Origin: Sulfurimonas sp. CG01_land_8_20_14_3_00_36_23
GTDB taxonomy: Bacteria > Campylobacterota > Campylobacteria > Campylobacterales > Sulfurimonadaceae
NCBI GenBank assembly: GCA_002781365.1
Contig: PETN01000057.1
Coordinates: 1 to 38,991, forward strand
Length of the DNA: 38,991 bases
Direction: 5' to 3'
In this document: piece after piece, positions 2,319 to 27,697 of the stretch
How the letters are laid out: every line of letters starts with the position of its first letter
Position numbering within the stretch: the first letter of the stretch is position 1
Made by a program: the position numbers and the translations under genes
The notes under the pieces: model-generated
Databases searched by the model: none
What the model was told of the DNA's origin: nothing
The model's input: only the letters and a program-made list of their open reading frames with translations

Positions 2319-2796
2319 GCGCAGAGTTTTTTTAAAAAGCTCTTTTTTAACTACTGCAGTGATTCTCTTCTCAGGGAGCAAGCTTTTTGGGGCAATCTCT
2401 CCGCTTGAAACACTCTCCTTGGTTCAAGAAGACCTGTTTCCACATGCCAAAGAGATAGGGATAAAGAGCGCAGAGTATCTCCTTCTCATTTTAGACCACA
2501 GCCGCATTACAGATGAAGAGAAAGCATTTATAAGAAACGGGGTTCAGTGGCTCAATGAAGAATCCCTCGCACGCTTTAAAAAAATCTACACAAAACTCTC
2601 CCCCGCGCAACGCCAAGAGATGCTTGAGACTATCTCTACAGAGAATTGGGGTGCGCGTTGGATAGAGAGTATGTTGACCTATATCTTAGAAGCAACACTT
2701 GGCGACCCAATCTATGGTGCAAACACAAAGGGTGCAGGTTGGAAATGGCTCCACCACACTTCGGGATTTCCTCGTCCTACAAAGGCATATCTATGA
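2305..2796 (+). CDS. Tat-exported small subunit, gluconate 2-dehydrogenase subunit 3 family
   Basis: A protein of 163 residues that starts with a twin-arginine-type signal (NKRRVFLKSS followed by a hydrophobic stretch). The mature part resembles the gluconate 2-dehydrogenase subunit 3 family, a small periplasmic partner that rides with a flavoprotein through the Tat pathway. Features include LVQEDLFPHAKEIG, a TENWGARWIESML segment and the C-terminal GWKWLHHTSGFPRP. The start is TTG 2305 with AGAGGG at 2291-2296. The gene shares an ATGA stop/start with the GMC dehydrogenase downstream, so the two are translationally coupled and probably form one enzyme. The DNA coding for FPHAKE is a copy of the repeated word described elsewhere. 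Confidence 0.78.
   Translation: MIFNKRRVFLKSSFLTTAVILFSGSKLFGAISPLETLSLVQEDLFPHAKEIGIKSAEYLLLILDHSRITDEEKAFIRNGVQWLNEESLARFKKIYTKLSPAQRQEMLETISTENWGARWIESMLTYILEATLGDPIYGANTKGAGWKWLHHTSGFPRPTKAYL
2437..2450 (-). repeat. copy of 12-base word TGGCATGTGGAA
   Basis: Exact copy, read on the plus strand as TTTCCACATGCCAA inside the small-subunit gene, where it codes Phe-Pro-His-Ala-Lys. Confidence 0.85.
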
Positions 2797-4448
2797 AATA
2801 CGATGTCTGTATCATCGGAAGCGGTGCAGGGGGCGCACCTATAGCCTACGAACTCTCCAACGCAGGGTTCAATGTAGTCGTTTTAGAAAAAGGCAAAGAG
2901 TACAAAGAGGAAGATTTCACTAAAGATGAAGTGGGTGTTTGTCGAAGAGAGATGTTTACTCCACCTCTCAAAGAGGAGCAGCATGTTATCAACGAGAGAG
3001 TGGAAGATGGAGGGATAACTCGGCATGTGGGAAGTGAGTCTGGCTGGAACTTTTGGAATGGTTCTATGGTAGGAGGCTCTTCTAATCTGATGAGCGGTTA
3101 TTTTCACAGAATGAAGCCCAACGACTTTAAACTTGAGAGTGTGTATGGAAAGATAGAGGGAGCCAATGTTGTCGATTGGCCTATTAGCTATGAGGATTTA
3201 GAACCCTATTATGAGAAGGTTGAAAGAGTTGTTGGAGTTTCAGGCAGAGTCACGAAACATAAATTTTCTGAGCCAAGAAGCACTCCAAACTTTCCACATG
3301 CCAAACTTGCAGAGAGTGGTGTTACGAAGTGGTTTGATTTGGCATGTGGAAATCTTGGATTTGAGAGCATTGCCACACCAAGAGCCATTTTACCTCTCAA
3401 TGCTCTTAACAGAAACGGCTGTTCTTACAGTAACTTTTGCGGAAGTTATGGCTGTGCAACGGGAGCTAAAGGAAGTGCGAGAGCTGCACTTTTACAAAGG
3501 TGTAAAGCAAAGATAATTACAGAGGCTTTTGTCTATAGGTTAGAGAGTGATGCAACTAAAATAACTTCGGCACACTACTACGATAAAGAGGGCATCTCAC
3601 ATGCCATAACTGCCAAGATATTTGTTCTTGCCGCACAAGCCATAGAGAGTTCGCGTCTGCTTCTTAACTCTAAAAACAGATATTTTAAAAACGGAATCGC
3701 GAACAACAGTAACCAAGTTGGAAAAAATCTTATATTCTCTGCGGGTGGTGCTGGAGAGGGTCGGTTCTATCATGAACATTTAACGCCCCAAGAGCAAAAA
3801 GATTTAATGCAACCTGGACTCTTTTTTAACCGCTCTTTACAGGATTGGTATGAGTATGAAGAGGGTGGGAAAAAGTACAAAGGGGGAACGATTGACTTTT
3901 TGTTTGAGCATGCAAATATTATCTCTCGTGCAAGAAGAGAACTCTATAAAGATGGAAAACTTATCTGGGGCGAAGCCTTGGCTAAGAAGATGTATCAATC
4001 GCTCACTACTTCAAGAGTTTTAACTTTTGAGGTTTTTAACGATTGGCTCCCAACAGATGGCTGTTTTGTGAGTGTGGATTCTGAGGTAAAAGATAAGTTC
4101 CACATGCCAGTAGGTGTCATAAATCTTTGGGGACATCCACATGATCTGAAGGTAGGAGAGCATCTCGCAAAGCAAGCCGCAAAAGTTTTAGAGAAGATGG
4201 GAGCGCAAGATATTTCCATGAGTATCTCCTCTTCTCCTCCTCCAAATCTAGTAGCAGGAGGTTGCAGGTTTGGAGATGACCCGAAAACATCCGTGCTAGA
4301 TAGAGAGTGCAGGGCGCATGAGTTAGAGAACCTCTATGTGAGTGATGCCTCTTTTATGCCAACAGGTGGGAGTGTTCCCTACACTTGGACGATTTACGCA
4401 AATGCTTTTAGGGTGGCAGATAGTATCTTAAAGCGAATCAAAAGTTAA
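2793..4448 (+). CDS. GMC-family FAD-dependent oxidoreductase (large subunit)
   Basis: The large flavoprotein subunit of a periplasmic sugar or alcohol dehydrogenase. At the N-terminus DVCIIGSGAGGAPIAYEL (from residue 4) is the FAD-binding fold. WNFWNGSMVGGSSNLMSGY is the GMC signature region. A cysteine-rich NGCSYSNFCGSYGCATGAKG lies in the middle, and the C-terminal NLYVSDASFMPTGG with a following YANAFRVAD is the GMC C-terminal motif. The open frame begins at 2646, but ATG 2793 overlaps the stop of the Tat-signal small subunit and gives a normal N-terminus (551 residues). No signal peptide is present, so export probably relies on the partner. The substrate is unknown. Three exact copies of the repeated 12-mer lie inside this gene. 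Confidence 0.88.
   Translation: MKYDVCIIGSGAGGAPIAYELSNAGFNVVVLEKGKEYKEEDFTKDEVGVCRREMFTPPLKEEQHVINERVEDGGITRHVGSESGWNFWNGSMVGGSSNLMSGYFHRMKPNDFKLESVYGKIEGANVVDWPISYEDLEPYYEKVERVVGVSGRVTKHKFSEPRSTPNFPHAKLAESGVTKWFDLACGNLGFESIATPRAILPLNALNRNGCSYSNFCGSYGCATGAKGSARAALLQRCKAKIITEAFVYRLESDATKITSAHYYDKEGISHAITAKIFVLAAQAIESSRLLLNSKNRYFKNGIANNSNQVGKNLIFSAGGAGEGRFYHEHLTPQEQKDLMQPGLFFNRSLQDWYEYEEGGKKYKGGTIDFLFEHANIISRARRELYKDGKLIWGEALAKKMYQSLTTSRVLTFEVFNDWLPTDGCFVSVDSEVKDKFHMPVGVINLWGHPHDLKVGEHLAKQAAKVLEKMGAQDISMSISSSPPPNLVAGGCRFGDDPKTSVLDRECRAHELENLYVSDASFMPTGGSVPYTWTIYANAFRVADSILKRIKS
3291..3305 (-). repeat. copy of 12-base word TGGCATGTGGAA
   Basis: Exact copy inside the GMC gene, plus strand TTTCCACATGCCAAA, coding Phe-Pro-His-Ala-Lys. 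The next copy follows 32 bases later in the opposite orientation. Confidence 0.85.
3338..3352 (+). repeat. copy of 12-base word TGGCATGTGGAA
   Basis: Exact copy inside the GMC gene, TTTGGCATGTGGAAA, here coding Leu-Ala-Cys-Gly-Asn. The reading frame differs from the neighbouring copy, so DNA and not protein sequence is conserved. Confidence 0.85.
4098..4109 (-). repeat. copy of 12-base word TGGCATGTGGAA
   Basis: Exact 12-base copy inside the GMC gene (TTCCACATGCCA), coding Phe-His-Met-Pro, yet another frame. Confidence 0.8.
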
Positions 4449-4519
4449 ACGACCCTAACAATGCTTTAATGTTTAAAGTGCAATAATATTTAATAGAAAA
4501 AAATACGAAGGAGTTCAAG

Positions 4520-4992: not shown

Positions 4993-4997
4993 TCCCT

Positions 4998-10703: not shown

Positions 10704-10780
10704 TTTTGGCATGTGGAAATGTTTGGCATGTGGATTTAGAGTAAAAAGTTTGAAAGATATATATTTCCACATGCCAAAAA
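10704..10780. repeat. cluster of three copies of the 12-base word forming a 17-bp inverted repeat
   Basis: Directly after cusA there are two direct copies (10704-10719 and 10722-10737, the second with one mismatch in the 12-mer) and one inverted copy (10764-10780). The segments 10704-10720 and 10763-10779 are perfect complements over 17 bases with a 42-base loop. In RNA this would be a stable stem, but no U-run follows on the plus strand, so it is not a classical terminator. Confidence 0.8.
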
Positions 10781-10793
10781 AGAAGCATAAATG

Positions 10794-10895
10794 TTAGGCA
10801 TGTACTAAAGAAACAATTACAAAACTACTGATTGTAAGAAGTGAATCTTTCAACGTCTCAATTGCTATTATGATTTTTGAAGTTAATTTTTTCAT
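10794..10895 (-). CDS. 33-residue hydrophobic small protein
   Basis: A short frame beginning MKKLTSKIIIAIE and ending SSFVIVSLVHA. It is preceded by AAAGGATTAAAAATG, the same ribosome site and spacing used by the Cys-rich gene at 27800, which is the main reason to believe it. A positively charged N-terminus with a hydrophobic stretch suggests a single membrane segment. The frame can be extended upstream to 11024, but that start lacks a ribosome site. Function unknown. It lies alone between cusA and the ribosomal operon, on the opposite strand to both. Confidence 0.45.
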   Translation of the reverse strand: MKKLTSKIIIAIETLKDSLLTISSFVIVSLVHA

Positions 10896-11041
10896 TTTTA
10901 ATCCTTTATTCTCTTTTAATGTTTGAATTTTACTTGTGTGAAATGAAGAACAAATGAAGAAAAACTTATCTTTTAAATTTTTATCTTCCTTATAAAAAGG
11001 AAGTAAATTTAAAGAGAAATTCATTTTTAAGCCCTAAATCC

Positions 11042-11125
11042 TTGAATATCAGCGTTTGTTTTGGTACAATTCCGCTCGTTTAAAATAGTTGGGCAAGACC
11101 TAACGAGTTCTTTAGAAGGAAAAAC
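11042..11125 (+). promoter_or_regulatory. promoter and leader of the ribosomal protein operon
   Basis: TTGAAT (11042-11047) and TACAAT (11065-11070) are separated by 17 bases, a good sigma-70-type pair, so transcription should start near 11077. The leader of about 50 bases contains CTCGTT (11075-11080) and AACGAG (11102-11107), which can pair around a 21-base loop, and then the ribosome site AAGGA before rpsJ. The hairpin could serve L4-type feedback, but no sequence match to a known leader was made. Confidence 0.6.
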
Positions 11126-11437
11126 ATGGAAAAAATTCGTTTAAAATTGAAAGCTTATGATCATCGTGTACTTGATAGATCAGTGGCATCAATAGTTGAG
11201 GCTGTAAAGCGTACAGGTGCTGCAATTCGCGGTCCTATCCCTTTACCAACAAAGATTCGTAAGTATACAGTTTTGAAATCTGTTCATATTAACAAAAAAG
11301 CGCGTGAGCAATTTGAAATCCGTATGCACGCTAGAGTAATCGACATCGTATCTGCTACGCCAGAAACTGTTGATTCTCTAATGAAACTTGATCTTGCACC
11401 AGAAGTGGACGTTGAAGTTCGCTCTATGGATAAGTAG
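11126..11437 (+). CDS. rpsJ: 30S ribosomal protein S10
   Basis: First gene of the operon. 103 residues, the usual length. Conserved features are [11 protein letters not shown] at the start, [15 protein letters not shown] and the C-terminal VDVEVRS. S10 sits in the head of the small subunit and in other bacteria also joins NusB in antitermination. Ribosome site AAGGA; rplC follows after 8 bases. Confidence 0.97.
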
Positions 11438-11445
11438 GAGAGGTC

Positions 11446-12021
11446 ATGGAATATATTGTTGAAAAAATCGGCATGAGCCGTACTATCAGTGTACCAAGTA
11501 AACCAGTTACTCTATTAAGAGTTCTTGATATGAAGGTATGTGAAGTGAATGAAGGAACTGCGATTGTATCTTACAAAAGCGGTAAAAAAATGAATAAAGC
11601 AATCGAAGGTCAACAAAAGAAATACGATCTTCCATCTGAATTTAATCGTTTTGTTACTTTAGAAGTAGCAAATACTGAAGCTGGAGATGTAGATATAGCG
11701 CCATTAGCAGAAGCTAAAGCATTAAAAACTACTTTCAACACTAAAGGTCACGGTTTTACAGGTGCAATGGTACGTTGGAACTTCGGTGGTGGTCCTGCTG
11801 AGCATGGTCATAGATTTGGTCGTAGAACTGGTTCTATCGGTAATGCTGAGTGGCCAGGTCGTGTTATGAAGGGTAAGAAAATGCCTGGACAATACGGAAA
11901 TACAAAAAATAGTGTTAAGAATGAGATCGTTTCTTATGATGCTGAAAATAAAATCCTAGTGGTTGTTGGTTCAGTTTCTGGAGCTAACGGTGCTTTAGGT
12001 CGTGTAAAGGTAGCTAGATAA
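11446..12021 (+). CDS. rplC: 50S ribosomal protein L3
   Basis: L3 binds near the peptidyl-transferase centre. 191 residues, slightly shorter than in E. coli. Family signatures are [20 protein letters not shown] and [20 protein letters not shown]; the glutamine of MPGQYGN is the position methylated in E. coli. The stop overlaps the start of rplD by one base. Confidence 0.97.
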
Positions 12022-12635
12022 TGAGCGCAATAGTTTTAAATGAAAAATTAGAAAAAGCTTCTGAGTTAGCATTACCAGAGAGTTTTTCTGGTATTAATCC
12101 TCATAACTTGTACTTGTATGTAAAGTCTGCACAAGCTGCTATGAGAGCAAACAGTGCAACTGCTTTAACTCGTTCACAAGTTAGAGGTGGTGGTAAGAAA
12201 CCATGGGCTCAAAAAGGTGGCGGACGTGCTCGTGCTGGTTCTCGTCGTTCTCCAGTTTTCGTAGGTGGTGGTAAGGCATTTGGTCCTAAAAACAACCGTA
12301 ACTACGATTTAAAAGTGAACAAAAAGCAAAAAAAACTTGCTTTAAACTTTGCTTTGAATGAACATGCACAAAACGGCACATTGTTTATAGTTGATAGCCT
12401 TGAAGTTGTATCTGGAAAAACTAAAGATGCAAATGTAATTTTCAAGCAACTTAATCAAAGAGATGTACTAATCGTTAAATCTCTTTTAGATGAGCCAACA
12501 TATTTAGCTTTTGAGAACATCGCTGCTACTTATGTTATTGAATCTAATGAATTAAATGCTTTCTTAGCTGCTAACTATCGTTCAATCGTGATCGAAAAAG
12601 CAGTATGGGAAAGTTTGACAAGTGAGGCTAAGTAA
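12021..12635 (+). CDS. rplD: 50S ribosomal protein L4
   Basis: 204 residues. The long loop that enters the exit tunnel is clear: [20 protein letters not shown] followed by ARAGSRRSP. In E. coli L4 represses its own operon; whether it does so here is not visible. One-base overlaps on both sides show tight coupling with rplC and rplW. Confidence 0.97.
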
Positions 12636-12916
12636 TGGCTGATATTACAGATATTAAATCTATATTATATACAGAGAAGACTCTTGGAATGCAAGAAGAT
12701 GGTGTAATCGTTGTACAAACATCTCCTCGTATGACTAAAACAGGTCTTAAAGAGGTTTTTCGTGAGTATTTTGGAATTATTCCAAGTAACATTAACTCAT
12801 TGAATCAAAACGGAAAAGTAAAAAAATTCCGTGGTGTTGCAGGTAAACAAAATAACTTCAAAAAGTTTTATGTTACTCTACCTGAGGGTGCACAAATAGA
12901 AAGTTTGGCGGTGTAA
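12635..12916 (+). CDS. rplW: 50S ribosomal protein L23
   Basis: 93 residues. L23 stands at the tunnel exit and docks trigger factor and SRP. Features are the N-terminal ILYTEKTLG and VRKVN-like stretch [19 protein letters not shown]. It starts on the last base of rplD and ends one base before rplB. Confidence 0.96.
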
Positions 12917-12917
12917 G

Positions 12918-13763
12918 ATGGCAATAAAAACTTATAAACCAACCACTCCGTCTCGTCGTTTTATGACGAATGTTGATTCGAGCGAGATTACTGCAAAAGC
13001 AAGTGTTCGTTCATTACTTGTTAAACTTCCAACTACTGCTGGTCGTAACAATCATGGTCGTATCACATCTCGTCATAAACAAGCTGGTGCTAAAAAACTT
13101 TACCGTATCATCGATTTCAAAAGAAATAAATTTGATATTCCAGGTACTGTAAGCGCTATTGAATATGATCCATACCGTAACTGTCGTATCGCACTTATCA
13201 CATATGCTGATGGTGAGAAAAGATATATACTTCAACCAAAAGGTTTAAGTGTTGGTGATGTAGTTTGCGCTGCTGAATCTGGTTTAGATGTCAAACCTGG
13301 TAATGCAATGAAATTAAAAAGCATCCCAGTGGGTACTGTTGTTCATAACGTTGAGTTAAAAGTTGGCAAGGGTGGACAATTAGTTCGTTCTGCTGGTACT
13401 TCTGCTCAAATTATGGGCCGTGATGGTAAATATGTTTCTCTTCGTATGCCTTCTTCTGAAATGCGTTTAGTTTTAGGCGAGTGTATAGCGACTGTTGGTT
13501 CAGTTGGTAATGAAGAGTTCGGTAATATCGTTATCGGAAAAGCTGGTCGTCAGCGTCACTTAGGTATTCGTCCTCAAACTCGTGGTTCTGCAATGAACCC
13601 AATAGATCACCCACATGGTGGTGGTGAAGGTAAAACGAACTCAGGTCGTCATCCGGTTACTCCTTGGGGTAAACCAACTAAAGGTGCTAAGACTCGTCGT
13701 AATAAAGCAAGTAATAAACTTATTATTACTCGCCGTAAACCAAATGCAAAAAGGGTAGGCTAA
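12918..13763 (+). CDS. rplB: 50S ribosomal protein L2
   Basis: 281 residues, usual for the group. L2 helps join the subunits and supports the peptidyl-transferase centre. The most conserved part is [20 protein letters not shown] with the histidine of HPHGGGEG known to matter for activity, then the basic C-terminus [14 protein letters not shown]. Overlaps rpsS by one base. Confidence 0.98.
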
Positions 13764-14041
13764 TGGCTCGTTCAGTAAAAAAAGGTCCATTTGTTGATGA
13801 TCATTTAATGAAAAAAGTTGTTGCTGCGAAAGCAGAGAGCAATAAAAAACCTATTAAAACATGGTCTCGTAGAAGTACAATTCTACCTGACATGATTGGT
13901 TTAACAATGAATGTTCACAACGGACGTCAATTTGTTCCTGTATATGTTACAGAGAATCATGTTGGTTATAAATTAGGTGAATTCGCACCAACTCGTACAT
14001 TTAAGGGCCATAAAGGTTCTGTACAGAAAAAGGTAGGTTAA
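13763..14041 (+). CDS. rpsS: 30S ribosomal protein S19
   Basis: 92 residues. S19 lies in the head of the small subunit and pairs with S13. Signatures are [33 protein letters not shown] and the C-terminal [13 protein letters not shown]. rplV begins two bases after the stop. Confidence 0.98.
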
Positions 14042-14043
14042 TT

Positions 14044-14361
14044 ATGGCTAGAGCATTATTGAAATTTATCCGTGTTTCACCTATCAAATCTCGTCTTATT
14101 GCAAGAGAAATTCAAGGTATGAATGCTGAAAAAGCATTAGCAGCTTTAGAGTTTACTCCAAACAAAGCAGCAAAAATTATCGCTAAAGTACTTGCATCTG
14201 CAGTTGCTAACAGTGGTAGTGAAGCTGAAGATTGTGTAGTTACATCATGTCGTGTAGACAATGGTCCAGTACTTAAACGTTTCCGTCCACGTGCTCGTGG
14301 TATGGCGTCAGGTATTAGAAAACCAACTGCACATATATTAGTAGAAGTAGAGGGTAAATAA
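14044..14361 (+). CDS. rplV: 50S ribosomal protein L22
   Basis: 105 residues. L22 lines the exit tunnel; the tunnel hairpin is near [20 protein letters not shown], where macrolide-resistance changes occur in other bacteria. The start is [20 protein letters not shown]. One base separates it from rpsC. Confidence 0.97.
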
Positions 14362-14362
14362 T

Positions 14363-15073: not shown

Positions 15074-15075
15074 TT

Positions 15076-15501
15076 ATGTTGATGCCAAAAAGAACAAAAT
15101 ATCGTAAAGTAATGAAAGGTCGTAACCGTGGTTACGCTCGTTCAGGTTATAATTTAGCTTTTGGTGACATCGCTTTAAAAGCTGTAGAAGCTGGTCGTAT
15201 CAACTCTCGTCAAATAGAGTCTGCACGTATCTCTGCTACACGTCACATTAAAAGAAATGGTAAGATTTGGATTCGTGTATTCCCTGCTAAGCCATTAACT
15301 GCTAAGCCTCTTGAAACTCGTATGGGTAAGGGTAAAGGTTCAGTTGATCAATGGGTTATGAATATTAAGCCAGGTCGTATAATTTTTGAAATGGCTGGTG
15401 TTCCGCATGATATCGCTCGTGAAGCGTTAACTCTTGCATTACACAAGTTACCATTCAAAACTAAAATAATCACTGCGGAGATGAACAATGAAATATTCTG
15501 A
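15076..15501 (+). CDS. rplP: 50S ribosomal protein L16
   Basis: 141 residues. L16 contacts tRNA in the large subunit. Start [19 protein letters not shown] matches the family, so ATG 15076 is kept over ATG 15082. Further signatures are [20 protein letters not shown] and [13 protein letters not shown]. Its 3' end overlaps rpmC by 14 bases. Confidence 0.98.
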
Positions 15502-15676
15502 TTTAGCAGATAAAAATTCAGCTGAACTTCAAGCTATGCTTAAAGCTAGAAAGACTGAACTTTTTACTTTAAAAATTAAACAAAAGATGATGCAATTGAC
15601 TAACACTAATGAAATTAGTGTTGCGAAAAAAGATATTGCAAGAATCAATACTGCACTTACTGCAGTAGCAAACTAG
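15488..15676 (+). CDS. rpmC: 50S ribosomal protein L29
   Basis: 62 residues, two helices as usual: [20 protein letters not shown] and the C-terminal [16 protein letters not shown]29 is near the tunnel exit next to L23. The start lies inside rplP, so translation is coupled. Confidence 0.95.
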
Positions 15677-15685
15677 GGGACGGCG

Positions 15686-15934
15686 ATGACACATAAACGT
15701 GAAATTCAAGGTAAAGTAGTTACGATTGCAGGCGAAAAAACGGTATCTATCGTTGTTGAACGTCGTGTAATGCACCCTCGTTACCATAAAGTTGTAAAAC
15801 GTTTCAAAAAGTACTTAGTACATGATGAGCGTAATGAAGTAAAAGTTGGGGATGAGATTATTGCAATCGAATGTCGCCCACTTTCTAAGACTAAATCTTT
15901 TAGACTTAAAACAGTTGTATCAGGAGCACAATAA
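15686..15934 (+). CDS. rpsQ: 30S ribosomal protein S17
   Basis: 82 residues, an OB-fold protein that binds 16S rRNA early in assembly. Signatures are [19 protein letters not shown] and [19 protein letters not shown], then [14 protein letters not shown]. One-base overlap with rplN. Confidence 0.97.
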
Positions 15935-16302
15935 TGATACAAGGTTTCAGTCGTTTAAATGTAGCTGATAATACAGGTGCAAAAGAGATTATGTGTATTA
16001 AGGTACTTGGTGGTTCTAAGCGTCGTTATGCTTCAGTAGGTGATGTTATCATCGCTTCTGTAAAAAAAGCGACTCCAACTGCTAAAGTTAAAAAAGGTAA
16101 AGTTGTAAAAGCTGTTATCGTTAGAACTAAAAAAGAGATTCACCGTGAAAACGGTTCTTTAATCCGTTTTGATGACAATGCAGCAGTTATACTTGATGAC
16201 AAGAGAGAACCTATCGGTACTCGTATTTTCGGACCAATTGGTCGTGAAGTACGTTATGCTGGATTTATGAAAATTGTATCTCTTGCGCCGGAGGTTGTTT
16301 GA
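15934..16302 (+). CDS. rplN: 50S ribosomal protein L14
   Basis: 122 residues, the exact usual length. Signatures are [40 protein letters not shown] and the C-terminal [11 protein letters not shown]14 lies at the subunit interface. The TGA stop overlaps the rplX start as TGATG. Confidence 0.98.
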
Positions 16303-16532
16303 TGGCAAAGTTTAATTTCAAAAAAGGCGATACTGTAGAAATTATCGCTGGCGATGACCGTGGAACTAAGGCGACTGTATTAGCAGTTATGCCTAAGAAA
16401 AACAAGGTAATCGTAGAGGGTTGTAAAATTGCTAAAAAAGCAATTAAACCAACTGAAGATAACACTAAAGGTGGTCATATCAATAAAGAGATGCCTATAG
16501 ATGTTTCAAATGTACGTAAAGTGGAGGCATAA
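16302..16532 (+). CDS. rplX: 50S ribosomal protein L24
   Basis: 76 residues with the KOW motif at the N-terminus ([20 protein letters not shown]). The open frame could begin at TTG 16299, but ATG 16302 gives the normal [10 protein letters not shown] start and has GGAGG at 16290-16294. Shorter than E. coli L24, as is usual in this group. Confidence 0.95.
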
Positions 16533-16536
16533 TTAG

Positions 16537-17082
16537 ATGGCTCGTTTAAAAGAAAAATATTTAGGTTTAAAATCTGAATTACAAGCTGACCTTGGTATTA
16601 AAAACATTATGCAAGTTCCTCAAATAGATAAAATTGTTATCTCTGTAGGTGCTGGTTTTGCAATGAAAGATAACAAGCTTATTCAAAATATTGAAGACAC
16701 AATTACTAAAATTGCTGGTCAAAAAGCAACTACAGTAATCGCTAAAAAATCTGTTGCAGGTTTTAAAGTACGTGAAGGTATGCCAGTTGGTATTCGTGTT
16801 ACACTTCGTGGTGAAAACATGTATAACTTTTTAGATCGTCTAGTTTCTATTGCACTTCCTCGTGTGAAAGATTTCCGTGGTGTTCCAAGAAATGGTTTTG
16901 ATGGTCGTGGTAACTATAACTTTGGTCTTCAAGAACAACTTATTTTCCCAGAGATTAGTTACGATTCAATCATCCAAATTCATGGTATGAATATCACTGT
17001 TGTAACTACTGCTGGTTCTGATAAAGCAGCCTATACTCTTCTTGAGAAGATGGGAATGCCTTTCACTAAAGGGAGTAACTAA
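16537..17082 (+). CDS. rplE: 50S ribosomal protein L5
   Basis: 181 residues. L5 binds 5S rRNA and contacts P-site tRNA. Signatures are [33 protein letters not shown] and [20 protein letters not shown] with [11 protein letters not shown]. One-base overlap with rpsN. Confidence 0.98.
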
Positions 17083-17267
17083 TGGCTAAGAAGTCAATGA
17101 TAGCAAAAGCGAAAAGAACTCCAAAGTTTGAAGTACGTGGATATACAAGATGTCAAATCTGTGGTCGTCCTCACTCAGTACTTCGTGACTTTGGAATCTG
17201 TCGTGTATGTTTTAGAAAAATGGCAAATGAGGGATTAATCCCAGGTGTTAGAAAGTCTTCTTGGTAA
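17082..17267 (+). CDS. rpsN: 30S ribosomal protein S14, zinc-binding short type
   Basis: 61 residues, the short form with two CxxC pairs, CQIC and CRVC, that hold zinc. The long zinc-free form is typical of many Gammaproteobacteria, so this type helps place the organism. The C-terminal [11 protein letters not shown] is standard. Its stop codon sits in the loop of a 9-bp hairpin. Confidence 0.97.
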
Positions 17268-17332
17268 GCCAAGAAGAAACTCCTAATAATTAGCAGTCTA
17301 GTTTTAGACTTGCAACATAAGGAATATTATTT
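17256..17332 (+). promoter_or_regulatory. two hairpins in the rpsN-rpsH gap
   Basis: Hairpin 1 pairs TCTTCTTGG (17256-17264) with CCAAGAAGA (17269-17277) around the stop codon of rpsN. Hairpin 2 pairs GCAGTCTA (17293-17300) with TAGACTTGC (17305-17313), 8 bp with one bulged base. No U-run follows either, and rpsH has its own ribosome site TAAGGA at 17318-17323. This is the longest gap inside the operon. A processing site or an S8 feedback site are the obvious ideas; neither is proven. Confidence 0.5.
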
Positions 17333-17728
17333 ATGATTAATGATTTAGTAGCTGACGCGTTAACTCGTGTTCGTAATGCTGGTATGAGAAGATTAGCTGT
17401 TACAACTTTAGTACACTCTAAAAGTGTTGAAGCTTTAGCAAATATCTTAGTAGAAAAAGGTTATATTGATAGTTGTAATGTTATCGAAGATGGCGTTAAA
17501 AAAACTATCAAAGTTGTACTTAAGTACGATGAAAATGAAAGAACTGTAATTAATGAACTCAAAAGAATTTCTAAGCCAGGTCGTCGTGTTTACAAAGGTA
17601 AAGAAGAGATTAAAAGATTCAAAAATGGTTATGGAACTATTATTGTAAGTACATCGCATGGCGTACTACCAAATGACAAAGCTTACGAGCTTGGCATTGG
17701 TGGTGAAGTTATGTGTACGGTTTGGTAG
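17333..17728 (+). CDS. rpsH: 30S ribosomal protein S8
   Basis: 131 residues. S8 is a primary 16S rRNA binder and represses the spc operon in E. coli. Signatures are [18 protein letters not shown] at the start, [17 protein letters not shown] and [20 protein letters not shown] with GEVMCTVW at the end. It follows a 65-base gap with two hairpins. Confidence 0.98.
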
Positions 17729-17737
17729 GGAGATAAC

Positions 17738-18274
17738 ATGTCAAGAATTGGAAAATTACCTGTAGAATTTGCAGCTGATATTAATGTTAGTTCAAATGGA
17801 AATGTTATTACTTTTGCTAAAGGCAAAAATAGTGTTGACTTAGACACAAAAGGGAATGTAGCTTTCACTATTGAAGGAAACACTTTAACTTTTGCTAATT
17901 TGTCAGATGCCAAAGACCATAGAGCTTTCTGGGGAACTTACCGCGCACTTGCTGCAAACATAGTTACTGGTTTAACAACTGGTTATACTAAGCAACTAGA
18001 AATCAACGGTGTTGGTTATAGAGCTGCAGTAAACGGTAAAGTACTTAATTTACAACTTGGTTTCTCTCATGATATTAATTATGATTTACCAGATGTAATT
18101 GAAGCTAGTGTTGAAAAAAATGTGATTACTCTTAAAAGCCATGACAAGCAAACGCTTGGTCAAGTTGCTGCAGAAGTTAGATCATTCCGTCCACCAGAGC
18201 CTTACAAAGGTAAAGGTGTTAAGTATGTAGAAGAGCATATCGTGCGTAAAGCCGGTAAAACTTCTAAGAAATAA
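17738..18274 (+). CDS. rplF: 50S ribosomal protein L6
   Basis: 178 residues, two related RNA-binding halves. [11 protein letters not shown] at the start and [19 protein letters not shown] in the middle are typical, and the C-terminal [20 protein letters not shown] is the most conserved part. L6 lies near the GTPase centre. Confidence 0.98.
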
Positions 18275-18287
18275 GGGAGGAATATAA

Positions 18288-18644
18288 ATGAATGCTAAAG
18301 TATTAAAAAGCAAAGTTGCGAATCGTTTAAAGCGTAAGCGTCGTATCCGTGCAAAAATATCTGGTTGTGCTTCACTTCCTCGTGTTTCTGTATTTCGTTC
18401 AAATCGTTATTTAAGTGTACAAGCTATTGATGATGCAACTGCAACAACATTATGCGCACTACACTCAAAGTCGACTGGTCACAAATCAAACAGAGAAGGT
18501 GCTGCTGCACTTGGTGAGGCATTTGCTGCAACACTAAAAGCTGCAAACATTTCTGCAATTGTATTTGATCGTAATGGTTACCAATATCACGGTGTTATAG
18601 CTGCGTTTGGTGATGCACTTCGTGCTAACGAAATTAAGTTTTAG
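18288..18644 (+). CDS. rplR: 50S ribosomal protein L18
   Basis: 118 residues. L18 binds 5S rRNA with L5. Signatures are [20 protein letters not shown] followed by [17 protein letters not shown], and [20 protein letters not shown] at the end. Confidence 0.97.
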
Positions 18645-18650
18645 GGGCTG

Positions 18651-19094
18651 ATGATGGAAATCAATAGAGAAGATTTTGAAGAAGCGATTGTAAATATAGG
18701 TCGTGTAACAAAAGTTGTTAAAGGTGGACGTCGTTTTCGTTTCACTGCACTTATCGTAGTTGGTAACAAAAACGGTACTGTTGGATATGGTGTTGGTAAA
18801 GCGAAAGAGGTTCCAGATGCAATTCGTAAAGCAGTGGATGAAGCTTTCAAAAACTTAACTACTGTTAAGATTAAAGGTTCAACAATTGCACATGATATTG
18901 AGCATAAATATAATGCAAGTCGCATTTTATTAAAGCCAGCATCAGAAGGTACGGGTGTTATCGCCGGTGGAGCTGCTCGTCCAGTTCTTGAACTTTCTGG
19001 TATCAAAGATGTACTTACAAAGTCAATCGGTTCAAACAATCCAAATACACTTGTTCGTGCTACTATTGAAGCACTTTCAAGAATCAAAGGATAG
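18651..19094 (+). CDS. rpsE: 30S ribosomal protein S5
   Basis: 147 residues. The N-terminal double-stranded RNA-binding fold includes [20 protein letters not shown] and [17 protein letters not shown]; the C-terminal half has [21 protein letters not shown]5 takes part in decoding accuracy. Two adjacent ATGs (18651 and 18654) are both possible starts. Confidence 0.98.
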
Positions 19095-19097
19095 AAA

Positions 19098-19496
19098 ATG
19101 GGTATTGAAAATTTAACACCTGCAGAGGGTTCAACAGCTAATCGTAAGCGTGTTGGACGTGGACAAGGTTCTGGTACTGGTAAGACTGCTGCTCGTGGTC
19201 AAAAAGGTCAGAAATCTCGTACAGGTTACAAAAGAAAAAGAAACTTTGAGGGTGGACAACAACCACTTGCAAAACGTTTACCAAAAATTGGATTTACATC
19301 TCGTTATGTAAAACCATATGTAATCAATGTTGAAAAAGTGACTGATATTGCAGGATTGGCTGAAATAACTATGGAAACTATCCGTAGCGTTCATAAAATC
19401 TCTGCTACAGTTACTAAAGTTAAGTTAGTTGGTGCTACTGCGAAAGATTTAGTATCAAAAATCAAAGACGAAAACATTACAACTACTGGTAAATAA
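19098..19496 (+). CDS. rplO: 50S ribosomal protein L15
   Basis: 132 residues. The glycine/arginine-rich N-terminus includes [20 protein letters not shown] and [21 protein letters not shown]15 is a late assembly protein. secY follows after two bases. Confidence 0.97.
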
Positions 19497-19498
19497 TT

Positions 19499-20761
19499 GT
19501 GAATAAAAATCTAGTTAATAAGATACTTATTACAATCGGGTTTTTATTTATTTATCGCCTACTGGCATACGTGCCAGTTCCTGGCGTTGATACTGCTGTT
19601 ATAGCATCATTCTTCAACTCACATCAATCGGATGCACTAGGTCTTTTCAACATGTTCAGCGGAAACGCAGTTGAGAGATTATCTATCATTTCACTTGGTA
19701 TTATGCCTTATATCACTGCTTCTATTATTATGGAACTTTTAGCTGCAACATTCCCTACTCTTGGTCAAATGAAAAAAGAGAGAGATGGTATGGTGAAGTA
19801 CATGCAAATCATTCGCTATGCGACGATTGTAATTACTATTATACAAGCTGTTGGGGTAAGTGTTGGACTCCAAAGTTTGACAGGTCCAAGTGGAAATAGT
19901 GCTATATTAGCGGACCAAAATACGTTTATACTTCTTTCGGTTGTATCTATGTTAGCTGGAACAATGCTTCTAATGTGGATTGGTGAGCAGATTACTCAAA
20001 GCGGTATAGGTAATGGTATATCCCTTATTATCTTTGCGGGAATTGTTTCTGCAATACCAAGCGCTATAGGTCAAAGTGTTACAATGGTAAATACAGGTGC
20101 TATGAGTTTCTTAACTCTTGTTGCAATACTTGTACTTATATTTGCTACTGTTGCAGTTATCATCTATGTAGAGCTTGGTGAGCGTCGTGTTCCTGTTACT
20201 TACGCTAAGAAAACAATGATGCAAAACCAAAACAAAAGAGTGATGAACTACATCCCTATTAAAGTAAATCTTGCTGGTGTTATTCCAGTTATTTTTGCAA
20301 GTGCGATATTGATGTTCCCTATGACAGTTTTATCTAGTAGTACAAACCCTAATGTTCAGGCTGTAGCTGATATATTGAACCCTAATGGTTACTTTTTTCA
20401 GTTGTTAACTTTTCTTTTTGTTGTTTTCTTTGCATTCTTTTATGCTTCGATTACATTCAATGCAAAAGATATAGCTGACAATTTAAAAAGACAAGGTGGA
20501 TTTATCCCAGGTATTCGAACCGGTGATGCTACAAAAGAGTTTTTAAATGAAACTGCAAGTAGATTAACAGTTACAGGTTCACTCTATCTAGGTCTTGTTG
20601 CTACATTACCATTTATGATTATTCATGGAATGGGTGTAGGTTTCTTCTTTGGCGGTACAGCAGTTTTAATTGTTGTTCAAGTCGCATTAGACACAATGAG
20701 AAAAATAGAGGCTCAGATATATATGAGCAAATATGAAACATTAAGTGCAGTTGGTTTATAA
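19499..20761 (+). CDS. secY: SecY protein translocase channel
   Basis: Central channel of the SecYEG export machinery in the inner membrane. 420 residues and ten hydrophobic segments. Signatures are YRLLAYVPVPGVDTAVI after the first segment, FNMFSGNAVERLSIISLGIM, the cytoplasmic loop ERRVPVTYAKK, and KRQGGFIPGIRTGDATKEFL late in the protein. The start is GTG 19499, two bases after rplO. map begins two bases after its stop. Confidence 0.98.
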   Translation: MNKNLVNKILITIGFLFIYRLLAYVPVPGVDTAVIASFFNSHQSDALGLFNMFSGNAVERLSIISLGIMPYITASIIMELLAATFPTLGQMKKERDGMVKYMQIIRYATIVITIIQAVGVSVGLQSLTGPSGNSAILADQNTFILLSVVSMLAGTMLLMWIGEQITQSGIGNGISLIIFAGIVSAIPSAIGQSVTMVNTGAMSFLTLVAILVLIFATVAVIIYVELGERRVPVTYAKKTMMQNQNKRVMNYIPIKVNLAGVIPVIFASAILMFPMTVLSSSTNPNVQAVADILNPNGYFFQLLTFLFVVFFAFFYASITFNAKDIADNLKRQGGFIPGIRTGDATKEFLNETASRLTVTGSLYLGLVATLPFMIIHGMGVGFFFGGTAVLIVVQVALDTMRKIEAQIYMSKYETLSAVGL

Positions 20762-20763
20762 AA

Positions 20764-21522
20764 ATGGCCATAGCGCTTAGAAAATCTGACGAAATTGAAA
20801 AATTAAGAGCTGCTAACAAGATTGTTGGTGGTGCGTTAGACCTACTTCGAGCAAACACAAAAGTTGGAATTTCTTTAAAAGAGTTAGATGCTATGGCTGA
20901 GGATTATATACGCAGCCATGGTGCTAGACCCTCTTTTAAAGGTCTTTATGGCTTTCCAAATGCTGTTTGTACTTCACTCAACAAAGTTATCATTCATGGA
21001 ATACCAACAGATTACAGGCTCCAAGAGGGTGATGTAATTGGTTATGATATAGGTACAGAGCTAGACGGTTGGTTTGGTGATGCAGCTATTACAGTACCAG
21101 TTGGAACAATTACTCCAGAAGATGAAGCCTTGATTGCATGTGCAAAAGAGACACTTTTATATGCAATCAGTGAGATAAAAGAGGGTATGAGATTTAAAGA
21201 GCTCTCACTACTGATGGAAGAGTCTATTCTCTCTCGCGGTTTTGTACCTCTTTACAACTTTTGTGGTCATGGCATAGGTAAAAGACCTCATGAAGAGCCT
21301 GAGATTCCAAACTATCTCAATGGTCAGAATCCAAAGTCTGGTCCAAAGATTAAGAATGGAATGGTTTTTTGTCTTGAACCTATGATATGTCAAAAAAACT
21401 CTAAACCAATTATTTTAGAAAATAAGTGGGATGTTGTTAGTGCCGATGGTTTACGCGGTTCACACTATGAGCATACTGTTGCAGTTATCAACGGTAAAGC
21501 TGAAATTTTATCTCTCGCTTAG
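20764..21522 (+). CDS. map: methionine aminopeptidase type I
   Basis: Removes the first methionine from new proteins. 252 residues. The two-metal site is complete: Asp in GYDIGTELDGWFGDAAITV (two ligands), His in GHGIGKRPHEEPEIPNY, Glu in FCLEPMI, and the terminal Glu in SHYEHTVAV. It lies between secY and infA as in many bacteria. Confidence 0.97.
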   Translation: MAIALRKSDEIEKLRAANKIVGGALDLLRANTKVGISLKELDAMAEDYIRSHGARPSFKGLYGFPNAVCTSLNKVIIHGIPTDYRLQEGDVIGYDIGTELDGWFGDAAITVPVGTITPEDEALIACAKETLLYAISEIKEGMRFKELSLLMEESILSRGFVPLYNFCGHGIGKRPHEEPEIPNYLNGQNPKSGPKIKNGMVFCLEPMICQKNSKPIILENKWDVVSADGLRGSHYEHTVAVINGKAEILSLA

Positions 21523-21540
21523 AGAAGAAGAAGGATTAAA

Positions 21541-21759
21541 ATGGCTAAATCAGATGTTATCGAAGTAGATGGCAAGATTATAGAGGCTTTGCCAAATGCA
21601 ACATTTCGTGTTGAACTAGAAAATGGACATATTATTTTATGTCATATTGCAGGAAAAATGCGTATGCACTATATCAAAATACTTCCAGGTGATAAAGTTA
21701 AACTTGAACTAACACCGTATAGTCTTGATAAGGGACGAATCACTTACCGCTATAAATAA
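21541..21759 (+). CDS. infA: translation initiation factor IF-1
   Basis: 72 residues, the usual length. An S1-like OB fold with [20 protein letters not shown] and [20 protein letters not shown]; the C-terminal [11 protein letters not shown] is standard. IF-1 occupies the A site at initiation. It is the last gene of the operon and is followed at once by a terminator; rpmJ, rpsM, rpsK, rpsD, rpoA and rplQ do not follow here. Confidence 0.98.
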
Positions 21760-21760
21760 G

Positions 21761-21780
21761 AAGAGGTCACCCTCTTTTTA
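21761..21780. terminator. intrinsic terminator after infA, possibly bidirectional
   Basis: AAGAGG (21761-21766) and CCTCTT (21771-21776) form a stem with loop TCAC, followed by TTTTTA. On the minus strand the same stem is close to the stop of the rhodanese-like gene, so it may serve both converging units. Confidence 0.75.
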
Positions 21781-22656
21781 TCTAGTTTCCCATTTATACT
21801 TTACCATAGGAAGCGCTTCTATATTTCCCCACTCAAGCAGTGAAGCTTCATAAAGTTTTGCATTCTTAAAGCCCATTTTTTTATAGAGTATAAACCAATT
21901 CATAGATGCGCTCATCGCATTCTCTCCATAAATAACTATCTCATCCTCTTTTTTGAGCTCATGTCCATTGATAAATATAGCTTCAAGTACATCATCGCTT
22001 TGTATAGTAAAGTCAGTTAAAAACTTATCTTGATAGAAACTACTTTTGGCATGTGGAATATGTCCAATCTCTTTTATGTTGCCAGAGCGTGCAACTCCAT
22101 AATACTCGTGTGCAGATCTTGAATCGAGTAGTTTAATCTTAGAGCTATTTGCTTGAATATACTCTAAAGTAGCAAAAAATGCTGGTTGCTTTTCTACTAT
22201 GAAATTGCCATCACTGCGTGAAGGTTTCTCTGTCGAAGTTAACAGCTCATTTTCAAAAACCCATGCCATATAGCCACCATCTAAGATACTTACATTCTCA
22301 AAACCGTGTGAAATCAGGATAAAGGCTAAATAACTACAATAGAGAGTATTGACAGCTCCATTATGAGAGTAAAGAACAACTTGGCTCCCCTTGTTTATGC
22401 CAAGGCTTGTGAGTTCATCCTGAATCAACGCAGGAGCATTCATAAGCTTATAGGGGCTCTCTGGGTTAATAAATTTCAAGATATCCACATGCGTAGCTCC
22501 CTCAATATGACCTCTCATATAAAGAGCATAGGGACTTACATCTAAAACAAGTGTGTTCTCATTTTTGAGTGAATCTTTGAGTTCTGAGGGCTTTATAAAA
22601 GCATCGAGTGCAAAAAGATTCAATGTGAGTGTAATAATAAGTAAAATTTTCTTCAT
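21778..22656 (-). CDS. exported two-domain rhodanese-like protein without catalytic cysteine
   Basis: 292 residues with a signal peptide (MKKILLIITLTLNLFALDA). Two rhodanese domains: the first with LVLDVSPYALYMRGHIEGA and VVLYSHNGAVNT, the second with LLDSRSAHEYYG, IGHIPHAKSSF and EIVIYGENAMSAS. In active sulfurtransferases of this type the second domain has a YCxxG-like loop; here the cysteine position reads Gly (YGENAMSA). The first domain also has no cysteine there, as is normal. The fold is therefore kept but classical thiosulfate:cyanide transfer is unlikely. The open frame extends to 22716; ATG 22656 is chosen because it gives the signal peptide and lies just after the aroQ stop. It is the third gene of a minus-strand unit. 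Confidence 0.8.
   Translation of the reverse strand: MKKILLIITLTLNLFALDAFIKPSELKDSLKNENTLVLDVSPYALYMRGHIEGATHVDILKFINPESPYKLMNAPALIQDELTSLGINKGSQVVLYSHNGAVNTLYCSYLAFILISHGFENVSILDGGYMAWVFENELLTSTEKPSRSDGNFIVEKQPAFFATLEYIQANSSKIKLLDSRSAHEYYGVARSGNIKEIGHIPHAKSSFYQDKFLTDFTIQSDDVLEAIFINGHELKKEDEIVIYGENAMSASMNWFILYKKMGFKNAKLYEASLLEWGNIEALPMVKYKWETR
22044..22058 (+). repeat. copy of 12-base word TGGCATGTGGAA
   Basis: Exact copy inside the rhodanese-like gene, which is on the minus strand and reads it as Ile-Pro-His-Ala-Lys. Confidence 0.85.
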
Positions 22657-23691: not shown

Positions 23692-24348
23692 TTACTCTTT
23701 AGAGTGAAGCAGGAGAAGCTTTTTTGCTATCTCTTTTTTTCTCTTCTCTTCTTCTGTATTTAGTAAAAGTTCGTTTAACCAAAAAAGAACCGCTTTTTTA
23801 TAGCCGTAAAAAGAGGCGCGCTCTAGTAGCTTCTCTCGAGTTGCATTTGTAAGATTCTCTTTTATCAAAGAGGCAGCAAGAAGTTGTGAAGTAATGGCTT
23901 CCATATTTAAAATATCCTCATTTGCACTTTTAAACTCTAAACTTTCCACATGCCAAACAAAGTTTTGATAGATTTTAGGAAGAAGTTGTATTTGAGCGCT
24001 TGTAAGCTTAGAGGTGAGTAAACTAAAATACGCATCCAAGGTTATATCATCTACAATATCTTTGATTACTTCATATTTTGGACATTTGCTAGTTTGTCCG
24101 ACTGAGATATTTAAAGCACACTCTCCCAAGTAGATAGTTGCTAAACTCTTTATATCAGAGCTTACTTTGGCATGCTCTAAGGCTCTGTTTAAGTCCGTTT
24201 TAGCGAGTGCATCTTTTGAAGATAAAAAGTTTGTTTTATAGGAGTCAAAACTGCTCGCACTCTCATATTGCCACTTGTTTGGTGCAGTTTTTGTTGCGCA
24301 TGCACTCAGCAGTAAAGCGAGTGTGAGGTAAAGGAGTGGTTTTATCAT
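23692..24348 (-). CDS. lipoprotein of the Mla-like transport operon
   Basis: 218 residues with a lipoprotein signal (LALLLSACATK; lipidated Cys near residue 17). The rest is mainly helical, without a recognised domain. It overlaps the MlaD-like gene by 4 bases, so it probably supports the same transport system, maybe at the outer membrane; in other organisms this place is held by an MlaA-like or PqiC/ABC-type lipoprotein. One exact copy of the repeated 12-mer lies within. Confidence 0.72.
   Translation of the reverse strand: MIKPLLYLTLALLLSACATKTAPNKWQYESASSFDSYKTNFLSSKDALAKTDLNRALEHAKVSSDIKSLATIYLGECALNISVGQTSKCPKYEVIKDIVDDITLDAYFSLLTSKLTSAQIQLLPKIYQNFVWHVESLEFKSANEDILNMEAITSQLLAASLIKENLTNATREKLLERASFYGYKKAVLFWLNELLLNTEEEKRKKEIAKKLLLLHSKE
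23943..23957 (-). repeat. copy of 12-base word TGGCATGTGGAA
   Basis: Exact copy inside the lipoprotein gene; on the coding strand it reads Trp-His-Val-Glu, a frame unlike the other copies. Confidence 0.85.
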
Positions 24349-26745: not shown

Positions 26746-26747
26746 CT

Positions 26748-27596
26748 TTACTCCTTTATATATATGCCAGTATCTTTTACTAAAATTTGACCTTTGTCTT
26801 GGAGGTTTGTAAGTGAGCGTTTAAAATCTTTTTTACTCATTCCAAAAACATCTTTGATAAGTTCCGCATCACTTTTGTAGTTATAAGGCATACTTCCACC
26901 ATTCTCTGTTAAGAGGTCAAGCACTTTGTCTCCAGTAGATGCACTCTTTTTACTGCCTGGTTTTCGTAAATTGAGGTCGATATTTCCATCTTTTCTTATT
27001 GTCTTCACATAAGCAGTTTTTTCATCGCCGAGTTGAATATTTTCAAAAATCTCACTATGATAAATGAGACCTTCATATTTGTCATCCACGATACACTTAA
27101 AACCAAGTGGCGTTTTTGCAATTACAATAATTTTTACTTCGCTGTTTGTGCTCAGACCTTTGACACGTTTTTCAAAAAAATCACCAAGCTTTTCTGTGCC
27201 TACTAGGCGGTGTGTTCTCTCATCATACACTACACGTAAAAATCTCTTCTCACCAACTTTAAAAGGCTCTTTTTGGAACATGTTAGGGACAAGTAAATCT
27301 TTTGCCAAGCCCCAGTTCATAAAAGCACCAAAAGGGGCAACATCTACAACTTCAAAAAGTGCGTATTCGTTGAGCATAGCTGTGGGCTTGAGCGTTGTTG
27401 CGATGAGTCTATCTTCTGAGTCTGTGTATAAAAAGACTTCAAGCAGAGAGTCTTCTACCATTTCATCTGTTACATAAGCTTGGGGAAGAAGGACATCTTT
27501 GCCATCATAAGCCATTAAAAAGATGCCGTGGGGCGTGTGTCTGTCAACTCTTAAAATATTTAAAAGTCCTAGTTCTAAAAAGTCGTTTTGTCGCAT
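26748..27596 (-). CDS. CvfB-like S1-domain RNA-binding protein
   Basis: 282 residues of the CvfB/YitL type: several S1-like OB folds and a winged-helix end. Features are an N-terminal LNILRVDRHTPHGIFLMAY with DVLLPQAYV, the S1 block LFEVVDVAPFGAFMNWGLAK followed by DLLVPN, a third block with GFKCIVDDKYEGLIYHSEIF, and the C-terminal VFGMSKKDFKRSLTNLQDKG. In Firmicutes CvfB affects virulence gene expression; here the role is not known. Ribosome site AAGGAA. Confidence 0.83.
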   Translation of the reverse strand: MRQNDFLELGLLNILRVDRHTPHGIFLMAYDGKDVLLPQAYVTDEMVEDSLLEVFLYTDSEDRLIATTLKPTAMLNEYALFEVVDVAPFGAFMNWGLAKDLLVPNMFQKEPFKVGEKRFLRVVYDERTHRLVGTEKLGDFFEKRVKGLSTNSEVKIIVIAKTPLGFKCIVDDKYEGLIYHSEIFENIQLGDEKTAYVKTIRKDGNIDLNLRKPGSKKSASTGDKVLDLLTENGGSMPYNYKSDAELIKDVFGMSKKDFKRSLTNLQDKGQILVKDTGIYIKE

Positions 27597-27668
27597 GTTG
27601 TTTCCTTGGTATTTCCGTTTTAAGTTCTTGTGCTGTGCAGAAAAAAATTATCTTGACATTATACCCGC

Positions 27669-27697
27669 TTTGGCATGTGGAAATTTCCACATGCCAA
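27669..27697. repeat. perfect inverted pair of the 12-base word
   Basis: Two exact copies head to head, 27669-27683 and 27684-27697, form a palindrome with no spacer. It lies in the 200-base space between two divergent genes (CvfB-like and Cys-rich protein). Terminators are not needed there, so the pair is not explained as one. Confidence 0.88.

Follow-up and report, generated by a model that had tools for sequence, protein, structure and literature searches.

The window, by which we mean the whole stretch of 38,991 nucleotides analysed, holds ten exact copies of an uptake-like word and an eleventh with a single change (Table 1), the number that the first-pass annotation had given, although its coordinates were 0–3 bases off. 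The weaker copies it had placed near 431 and 3021 are also present, with two changes each. Allowing up to two mismatches, the window contains 17 matches, against a mean of 2.77 and a maximum of 8 in 100 shuffles. All peptides that had been read from the genic copies occur in the window’s open reading frames, and the word is kept at the DNA level, appearing in all frames, in coding and intergenic DNA and in inverted pairs. As had been noticed, it is absent from the ribosomal operon (10766–22048) and from 27686 to the window end. Core and accessory DNA were compared for one stretch, the word-free 28–39 kb region: among 31 genomes, a sample without other species of its dialect (D1), the one gene tested there is confined to the home genome.

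Table 1. Positions of the uptake-like word in the window.
Feature	Position	Strand	Context
Exact word	2438..2449	-	codes FPHAK
Exact word	3292..3303	-	codes FPHAK
Exact word	3340..3351	+	codes LACGN
Exact word	4098..4109	-	codes FHMP
Exact word, intergenic	10707..10718	+	left arm of long hairpin with 10765-10776; fold z -6.94
One-change word (last base differs); 10-base core GGCATGTGGA kept	10724..10735	+	
Exact word, intergenic	10765..10776	-	right arm of hairpin with 10707..10718
Exact word	22047..22058	+	codes IPHAK in minus-strand gene
Exact word	23944..23955	-	codes WHVE
Exact word, intergenic	27671..27682	+	left arm of 12-bp perfect inverted pair; fold -20.5 kcal/mol, z -5.56
Exact word, intergenic	27685..27696	-	right arm of inverted pair with 27671..27682

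Across the 2.43 Mb genome of this sulphur-oxidising bacterium, assigned by GTDB to Sulfurimonas, TGGCATGTGGAA is present in 625 copies (300 on the plus and 325 on the minus strand), whereas the reversed control word gives 0 on either strand; the word is thus not the local repeat family that had been considered as the contrary outcome. The motif, TTTGGCATGTGGAAATT, has a sharp core and is asymmetric rather than palindromic. In 339 kb, the core GGCATGTGGA occurs 123 times, against 0.35 copies expected from a Markov background, alongside 36 words with one mismatch. Ninety-two of the 123 copies lie wholly within predicted genes and use all six reading frames; the remaining 31 lie partly or wholly outside genes, where 8.5 were expected (p 2e-10). 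The intergenic inverted pairs described by the first-pass annotation are common and fold as hairpins. Such hairpins would also be produced by copies of a small mobile element (a REP, MITE or inverted-repeat family), but homology among the copies ends at about 17 bp, and this lack of flanking homology contradicts a mobile origin; the copies are, moreover, mostly single and genic, in all frames, and different words stand at the same sites in other species. We consider that origin extremely improbable. The hairpins and the excess outside genes are equally features of regulator binding sites or transcription terminators, a very unlikely explanation given a majority of wholly coding copies and about 600 copies per genome on either strand. 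Terminator use of the paired words looks secondary, by analogy with the USS of H. influenzae, whose paired copies are described as terminators. Finally, a short, frequent and non-palindromic word could have a polar role, like that of Chi or of chromosome-segregation guides (KOPS), but its orientation is strand-neutral within single contigs (41 plus and 44 minus copies in contig C1, in 54 runs against 43.4 expected), and inverted pairs are common. The random local orientation contradicts a polar role, for which we see next to no likelihood.

Relatives carry other words, namely TACATGTA, TAGCATCTA, C/TGCGTTTA and TGCGTGAG. Four words are mutually exclusive: with assignment by one stated threshold, 35 of 75 genomes carry one of them and 0 of 75 carry two. 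The dialects are clade-bound, one per genome, and on the tree their labels require 12 changes for 43 rows, or 17 for 49 rows once unlabelled species are included (shuffled mean 32). At places orthologous to D1 sites of the donor genome G000, the four other dialects often have their own word, in register: the core of the species’ own class is found in 18 of 108 alignments for D3, 9 of 55 for D4, 6 of 58 for D2 and 12 of 39 for D5, against 0.7–2.3% for the own core in control windows and 0 or 1 for other cores. Positional homology was not seen for the D2b dialect (0 of 16 alignments with donor G000, and likewise 0 of 66). Because own words stand at orthologous sites in register, the dialects look, on sequence comparison, like one inherited system. 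The genome-wide occurrence of the word, together with the presence of the relatives’ other words at the same places, makes it look like a self-recognition label for DNA uptake.

Words of this kind were also found in G250, G302, G315 and G005 in a search of 20 kb (two shorter) in each of 20 genomes, a search of limited sensitivity, as G016 was missed although its word is present genome-wide. Repeated blocks were seen in G203 and G206 in the same search. Among 150 genomes examined for other families of the class, f10 is the only one outside the home family in which TACATGTAR is raised.

The word has decayed in G148, in which comEC is split, and in G143, which gives no ComEC match. In four intact species the one-mismatch excess per exact copy lies between −0.08 and 0.15, but it reaches 2.19 in G148 and 1.14 in G143, and orthologous word sites are intact in 115 of 181 alignments among D1 species and in 6 of 83 in G148. 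Within the 39–119 kb searched in each, G148 and G143 hold remnants of the window’s word only, and no replacement dialect was found in these two or in G091, G047, G059, G073 and G089. Both comEC halves of G148 are open frames, so the word may have begun to decay before the gene was split; the two genomes may also be one lineage. Other genomes speak against a simple dependence of the word on comEC. In G091, ComEC is intact, with no stop, yet the word has decayed (34 full words), and G047, G059, G073 and G089 match ComEC intact but yielded no word in the DNA searched. The comEC of G001 is interrupted by one in-frame stop, and TGCGTGAG words persist in that genome; on account of this stop, we hold the uptake-word reading slightly less firmly.

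An alternative is a chromosomal, highly iterated word with no part in DNA uptake, whether HIP1-like, bound by a nucleoid protein or serving as a methylation or repair mark. HIP1 of cyanobacteria is one palindromic octamer and very frequent; it is like the words described here in being short and very frequent, and unlike the window’s word, which is asymmetric. The retention of words in G001 speaks for a chromosomal function, and the TACATGTA dialect (D3) is itself palindromic (TTTACATGTAAA in G250 and G315, CTTACATGTAAG in L172). However, the window’s word and the remaining dialects lack this symmetry and stand in register at shared sites, and the word has decayed in both genomes with a split or missing comEC. 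Overall, we regard a purely chromosomal function as unlikely.

Of the competence genes that the first-pass annotation had proposed to look for, ComEC and prepilins were found. ComEC is matched in 83 of 84 genomes, and G000 has an Msh/Cts-like cluster with a secretin, an ATPase and T2SSF, and prepilins too. A FimT/GspH-like orphan minor pilin, a name that is a reading of its sequence (Pfam gives a sub-threshold N_methyl match only), is common in these genomes: of 46, 38 hold a full or partial orthologue, 6 give no more than a short N-terminal prepilin match and 2 give none; in the word-bearing G103, G145 and G002 the match is of the short kind. It is comparable to Legionella FimT, a DNA-binding minor pilin for which, in the portion of the source available, DNA binding is reported with no preferred word. 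The FimT/GspH-like protein is one candidate receptor. Covariation of pilins with dialect was examined at several loci. The pilin pair adjoining priA does not covary with dialect (partial r.04, p.24, for one and.05, p.12, for the other; in a second test, -.08, p.73, and.13, p.13). The FimT-like pilin does covary: relative to the neighbour gene, r is.227 in 23 genomes (p.004), and relative to DnaB+ComEC+PriA it is.243 in 15 (p.012). So do MshD, MshO and MshQ, with r.32–.37 over 55 pairs, with FimT at r.19 (p.09) on those genomes; MshP was left out, as a different gene (177–180 aa) had been taken in some genomes. Non-pilin controls are associated with dialect too: r is.36 for the neighbour gene NB,.42 for ComEC,.33 for PriA and.006 for DnaB, and, over 43 rows,.17 for ComEC,.15 for PriA and.03 for DnaB. 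The covariation test is therefore confounded by descent, and no receptor is claimed from the association of the FimT-like, MshD, MshO and MshQ pilins.

Taken together, we assign a probability of about 0.78 to the reading, drawn from sequence data, that this Sulfurimonas lineage uses TTTGGCATGTGGAAATT as its uptake word, within a DUS-type system in Campylobacterota, which would be the third lineage to have one. Those of the checks suggested at the outset that were run (genome-wide count, relatives, Markov background, search for ComEC and prepilins) each gave the outcome expected of an uptake word, an interpretation that the mutually exclusive words, the positional homology and the word’s decay in G148 and G143, whose comEC is split or missing, support. 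In natural transformation, word-bearing DNA would be bound by a surface receptor, most likely one of the minor pilins of the Msh/Cts-type pilus, and pulled in, with one strand passed into the cell by ComEC. Word-bearing fragments would enter and recombine more often, so that intact copies would spread and damaged ones be replaced by molecular drive. A shift in receptor specificity would convert the existing sites to another dialect where they stand, as positional homology suggests, and after loss of uptake the words would decay like their surroundings, as seen in the two genomes.

According to a recent paper, Neisseriaceae and Pasteurellaceae are the only families with known uptake words (PMC12616744, 2025). 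In the open PMC literature, no uptake sequence described for Campylobacterota, Sulfurimonas or Sulfurospirillum was found, in line with the earlier statement that none was known for the phylum; a query for DNA uptake sequences in Epsilonproteobacteria returned a review on pathogens, and among the matches listed for the literal words, the papers look unrelated. As far as the available portions of the sources describe it, the DUS of Neisseriaceae (receptor ComP) is likewise a 9–12 base word in hundreds to thousands of copies on both strands, with several clade-bound dialects, and gains few copies when one mismatch is allowed (+21% in K. oralis; here, 36 on 123). The words described here differ in belonging to an unrelated phylum, in sequence and in having one palindromic dialect, unlike either DUS or USS; the present analysis also sets dialects side by side at orthologous sites, for which no counterpart was met in the material available on DUS. 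The USS of Pasteurellaceae (predicted receptor ComN/PpdA) shows, in the sections at hand, the same kind of distribution, with two dialects tied to clades; the words are different, there are at least five dialects here, and G000 has the Msh/Cts-like secretin–ATPase cluster.

We think it fairly probable that self-recognition in transformation evolved independently a third time, in Campylobacterota, as a system that covers two or more families (the one containing Sulfurimonas and another that is probably Sulfurospirillaceae) and five or more dialects, whose origin may have been a palindromic word. In this reading, many inherited sites would be rewritten together in place at each receptor change, and the dialect would set the partners for gene exchange. 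If so, the trait evolved again in a distant phylum, and free-living test species are gained. Dialects at orthologous sites make the long debate between molecular drive through biased uptake and selection acting on the word countable, and a single site becomes traceable across several dialects and through loss. The boundaries between dialects would then predict the boundaries of gene flow among these bacteria.

The 12-letter word TGGCATGTGGAA, a candidate uptake word, occurs in the window in the ten exact copies and the single-change copy that the first-pass annotation had reported; with up to two mismatches allowed, 17 matches were found against a shuffle mean of 2.77. The over-representation holds genome-wide, with 300 + 325 copies in the home genome (G000; 2,427,617 bases on 102 contigs) and 0 for the reversed control word. 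The shape of the word was read from 338,991 bases of this genome (the window, 220 kb of contig C1 and 80 kb of C6), in which its sharp inner core, GGCATGTGGA, has 123 copies where 0.35 would be expected, and the complete 12-mer has 88; the profile consensus is TTTGGCATGTGGAAATT, with background level outside. In the same sample, first-base one-mismatch neighbours of the core number 29, and those at all other positions number 7 against 9.1 expected: damaged copies are almost absent. Wholly within genes lie 92 of the 123 core copies, covering all six frames and read most commonly as FPHA and LACG, and the other 31 compare with 8.5 expected (genes called with our own script; coding fraction.931). 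Orientation is random within contigs (41+/44- in C1). Neighbouring words at most 60 bp apart form 12 pairs, of which eight are convergent and inverted, six of these intergenic. Inverted pairs between genes, as initially described, were thus recovered; two pairs of the window are listed in the table, and one inverted pair on C1 has a fold z of -6.21. USS terminators are treated in PMC5217627, in passages that make no mention of Sulfurimonas. The claimed absence of the word from the ribosomal operon also held. From the word-free 28-39 kb of the window, a single stretch, one gene was sought in 31 genomes, among which the home genome was the sole representative of D1, the dialect of the window's word; only the home genome had it.

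Across the 200 genomes of the family sample, the window's word has at least one copy in 55 and at least 283 copies in only seven, all within the genus: 762 in G142, 671 in G105, 625 in G000, 408 in G151, 404 in G103, 400 in G144 and 283 in G135. G169 follows with 115, six genomes have 11-47, and the remaining 186 have 0-5. Other words were sought in the relatives' own sequence and then counted genome-wide in 75 of the 200 genomes, with strands summed and the reversed pattern as control. YKGCGTTTA reaches 393-1386 copies in six genomes (controls 21-90) and TAGCATCTA 201-615 in six (controls 28-40). TACATGTAR counts run from 291 to 1257 for 12 Sulfurimonas and from 1097 to 3083 for four other genera, with controls at 22-67; as the core of this word is palindromic, a single place can be scored twice, which applies to the control as well as to the word. 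The strand imbalance of TACATGTAR is larger in G064 (629 forward and 491 reverse copies) than in the other genomes with high counts. With carriers defined by more than 200 copies and more than 4x the control (at least 283 for the 12-mer), exactly one of the four words is carried by 35 of the 75 genomes and two words by none. A fifth word, TGCGTGAG, was seen in local sequence only (G001, L133-L135, L140). In f10, a family outside that of the home genome whose members are probably Sulfurospirillum, three genomes have 2398-2941 copies of TACATGTAR, and two more have 177 and 29; its TACATGTAR-type word is the perfect palindrome TTTACATGTAAA, and the palindrome TTACATGTAA has 7-13 copies per 20 kb in stretches L320, L321 and L322. 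Among other repeats, a block, ACTGTTGTAG, is repeated 36 times in L110, where it may form a CRISPR array, and another block occurs 15 times in L118. A literature search returned no report of an uptake word for Campylobacterota, in line with the first-pass annotation, to which none was known. DUS dialects, and how they agree with phylogeny, are described in PMC3630211.

When placed on a DnaB-ComEC-PriA tree (49 rows, G151 left out), the dialect labels require 17 changes against a shuffled mean of 32, and 12 once the six species in which no word was found are removed; the window's word falls in two separate species groups. In a positional test, D1 words with 200-bp flanks from a donor genome were aligned to other species (without L132 and L167, second copies of G140 and G019), and the word was read at the aligned place. 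With G000 as donor, a species' own core stood there in 18/108 cases for dialect D3 (control windows 0.7%), 9/55 for D4 (1.5%), 6/58 for D2 (1.5%) and 12/39 for D5 (2.3%); D2b gave 0/16, and 0/66 with all six donors. Foreign cores were met 0 or 1 time with this donor, and species in which no word was found had a core, that of D3, at 2/69 places. Summed over the six donors, with sites and species occurring repeatedly, own cores number 62/407 (D3), 30/189 (D4), 21/259 (D2) and 42/142 (D5), foreign cores at most 5/407 (D4 core in D3 species), and cores in species without a word 4/262. Orientation matches that of the D1 word in 28/30 (D4), 42/42 (D5), 20/21 (D2) and, for near-palindromic D3, 43/62. 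Behind these counts stand only 12 different sites of G000, or 39 when all donors are taken together; five of the 12 show two or more dialects, and many of the sites cluster around priA, as this locus was covered in a large number of species. At one aligned site, G000 has CATTGGCATGTGGAAACT, G087 CCTTAGCATCTACAAACT and L152 CTCTTGCGTTTACTAACT. Since own cores stand at aligned D1 places, the words are homologous by position, and they appear to change in place.

Prepilins, candidate DNA receptors for which a search had been proposed, were present in 16/16 genomes searched. One pair adjoins priA, close to comEC, and a minor set accompanies a 1372-aa protein and is presumably Msh-like, judged from gene order. 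An orphan FimT/GspH-like prepilin was found in full or in part in 38 of 46 genomes, with a short N-terminal match only in G103, G168, G123, G129, G145 and G002 and no match in G169 and G192, some of these being fragmented drafts. The FimT-like gene starts within 250 bases of the contig start in 13 drafts and lies at a contig end in G000 (L251 and contig ends of other drafts), as if a repeat such as an rRNA operon followed it; where drafts lack the gene, a gap in the assembly may be the reason. A shorter paralogue (173-198 aa frames) stands beside the longer one in some genomes. FimT is reported to bind DNA (PMC8897410). An association with dialect that went beyond descent was found for no pilin.

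Positions of features in the home genome and its relatives
Genome or stretch	Position	Feature	Remark
window	10707-10776	word pair	fold z -6.94
window	27671-27696	inverted word pair	-20.5 kcal/mol, z -5.56
window	33015-38817	word-free run; genes resembling dioxygenases and carbamoyltransferases, as judged by eye	may be acquired DNA; includes the gene with a match in 1 of 31 genomes
G000 C6	11609-21019	T2SSF, T2SSE with MshEN, AAA ATPase, secretin	resembles Cts transformation genes of Campylobacter jejuni
L104 (G148)	11449-20837	comEC split by an insert of ~8.1 kb with several unidentified genes	insert possibly an element targeting comEC
L104 (G148)	13436-13972	ORF for second FimT-like prepilin	within the insert
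G097 C1	269222	shorter FimT-like paralogue	
G141 C1	1772738	shorter FimT-like paralogue	
G115 C1	1672123	shorter FimT-like paralogue	
G137 C1	664331	shorter FimT-like paralogue	
G073 C1	460485	shorter FimT-like paralogue	
G151 C43		shorter FimT-like paralogue	
G095 C31		shorter FimT-like paralogue	

The transformation protein ComEC was matched in 83 of 84 distinct genomes, with no match in G143 (99% complete). Short open frames were seen in G148 (255 aa), G009 (297 aa) and, at contig ends, G142 and G192; in G148 the gene is split, residues 1-171 and 166-416 lying apart. Full words left number 47 in each of G148 and G143. G148 is placed among D1 species on the tree, and G143, without a tree row, by its remnant words and a FimT-like pilin resembling that of G148. 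The one-mismatch excess per exact core copy is -0.02 in G000, 0.15 in G142, 0.06 in G103 and -0.08 in G135; it is 2.19 in G148, 1.14 in G143 and 1.83 in G091. The orthologous word is intact in 115/181 alignments between D1 species (pairs counted in both directions; identity.858 in the word,.752 in the flank), 6/83 in G148 (.781 and.780, as expected of unconstrained sites), 0/66 in G091 (.709 and.749) and 0/15 in G123, a D3 species; G143 had 0 aligned sites. With G142 as single donor, 23/40 were intact in D1 species vs 4/43 in G148. A simple link between comEC and the word is opposed by G091, in which the word has decayed despite an intact ComEC, and by the complete genome G001, which has one in-frame stop within its comEC match (L221) yet retains TGCGTGAG words. 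The two halves of comEC in G148 remain open frames; uptake loss may therefore have started at another place, with the split a later event.

The sequence evidence that these words constitute an uptake-word system with dialects is strong, and we put the probability of this reading, with its presumed uptake and putative receptor, at about 0.78.
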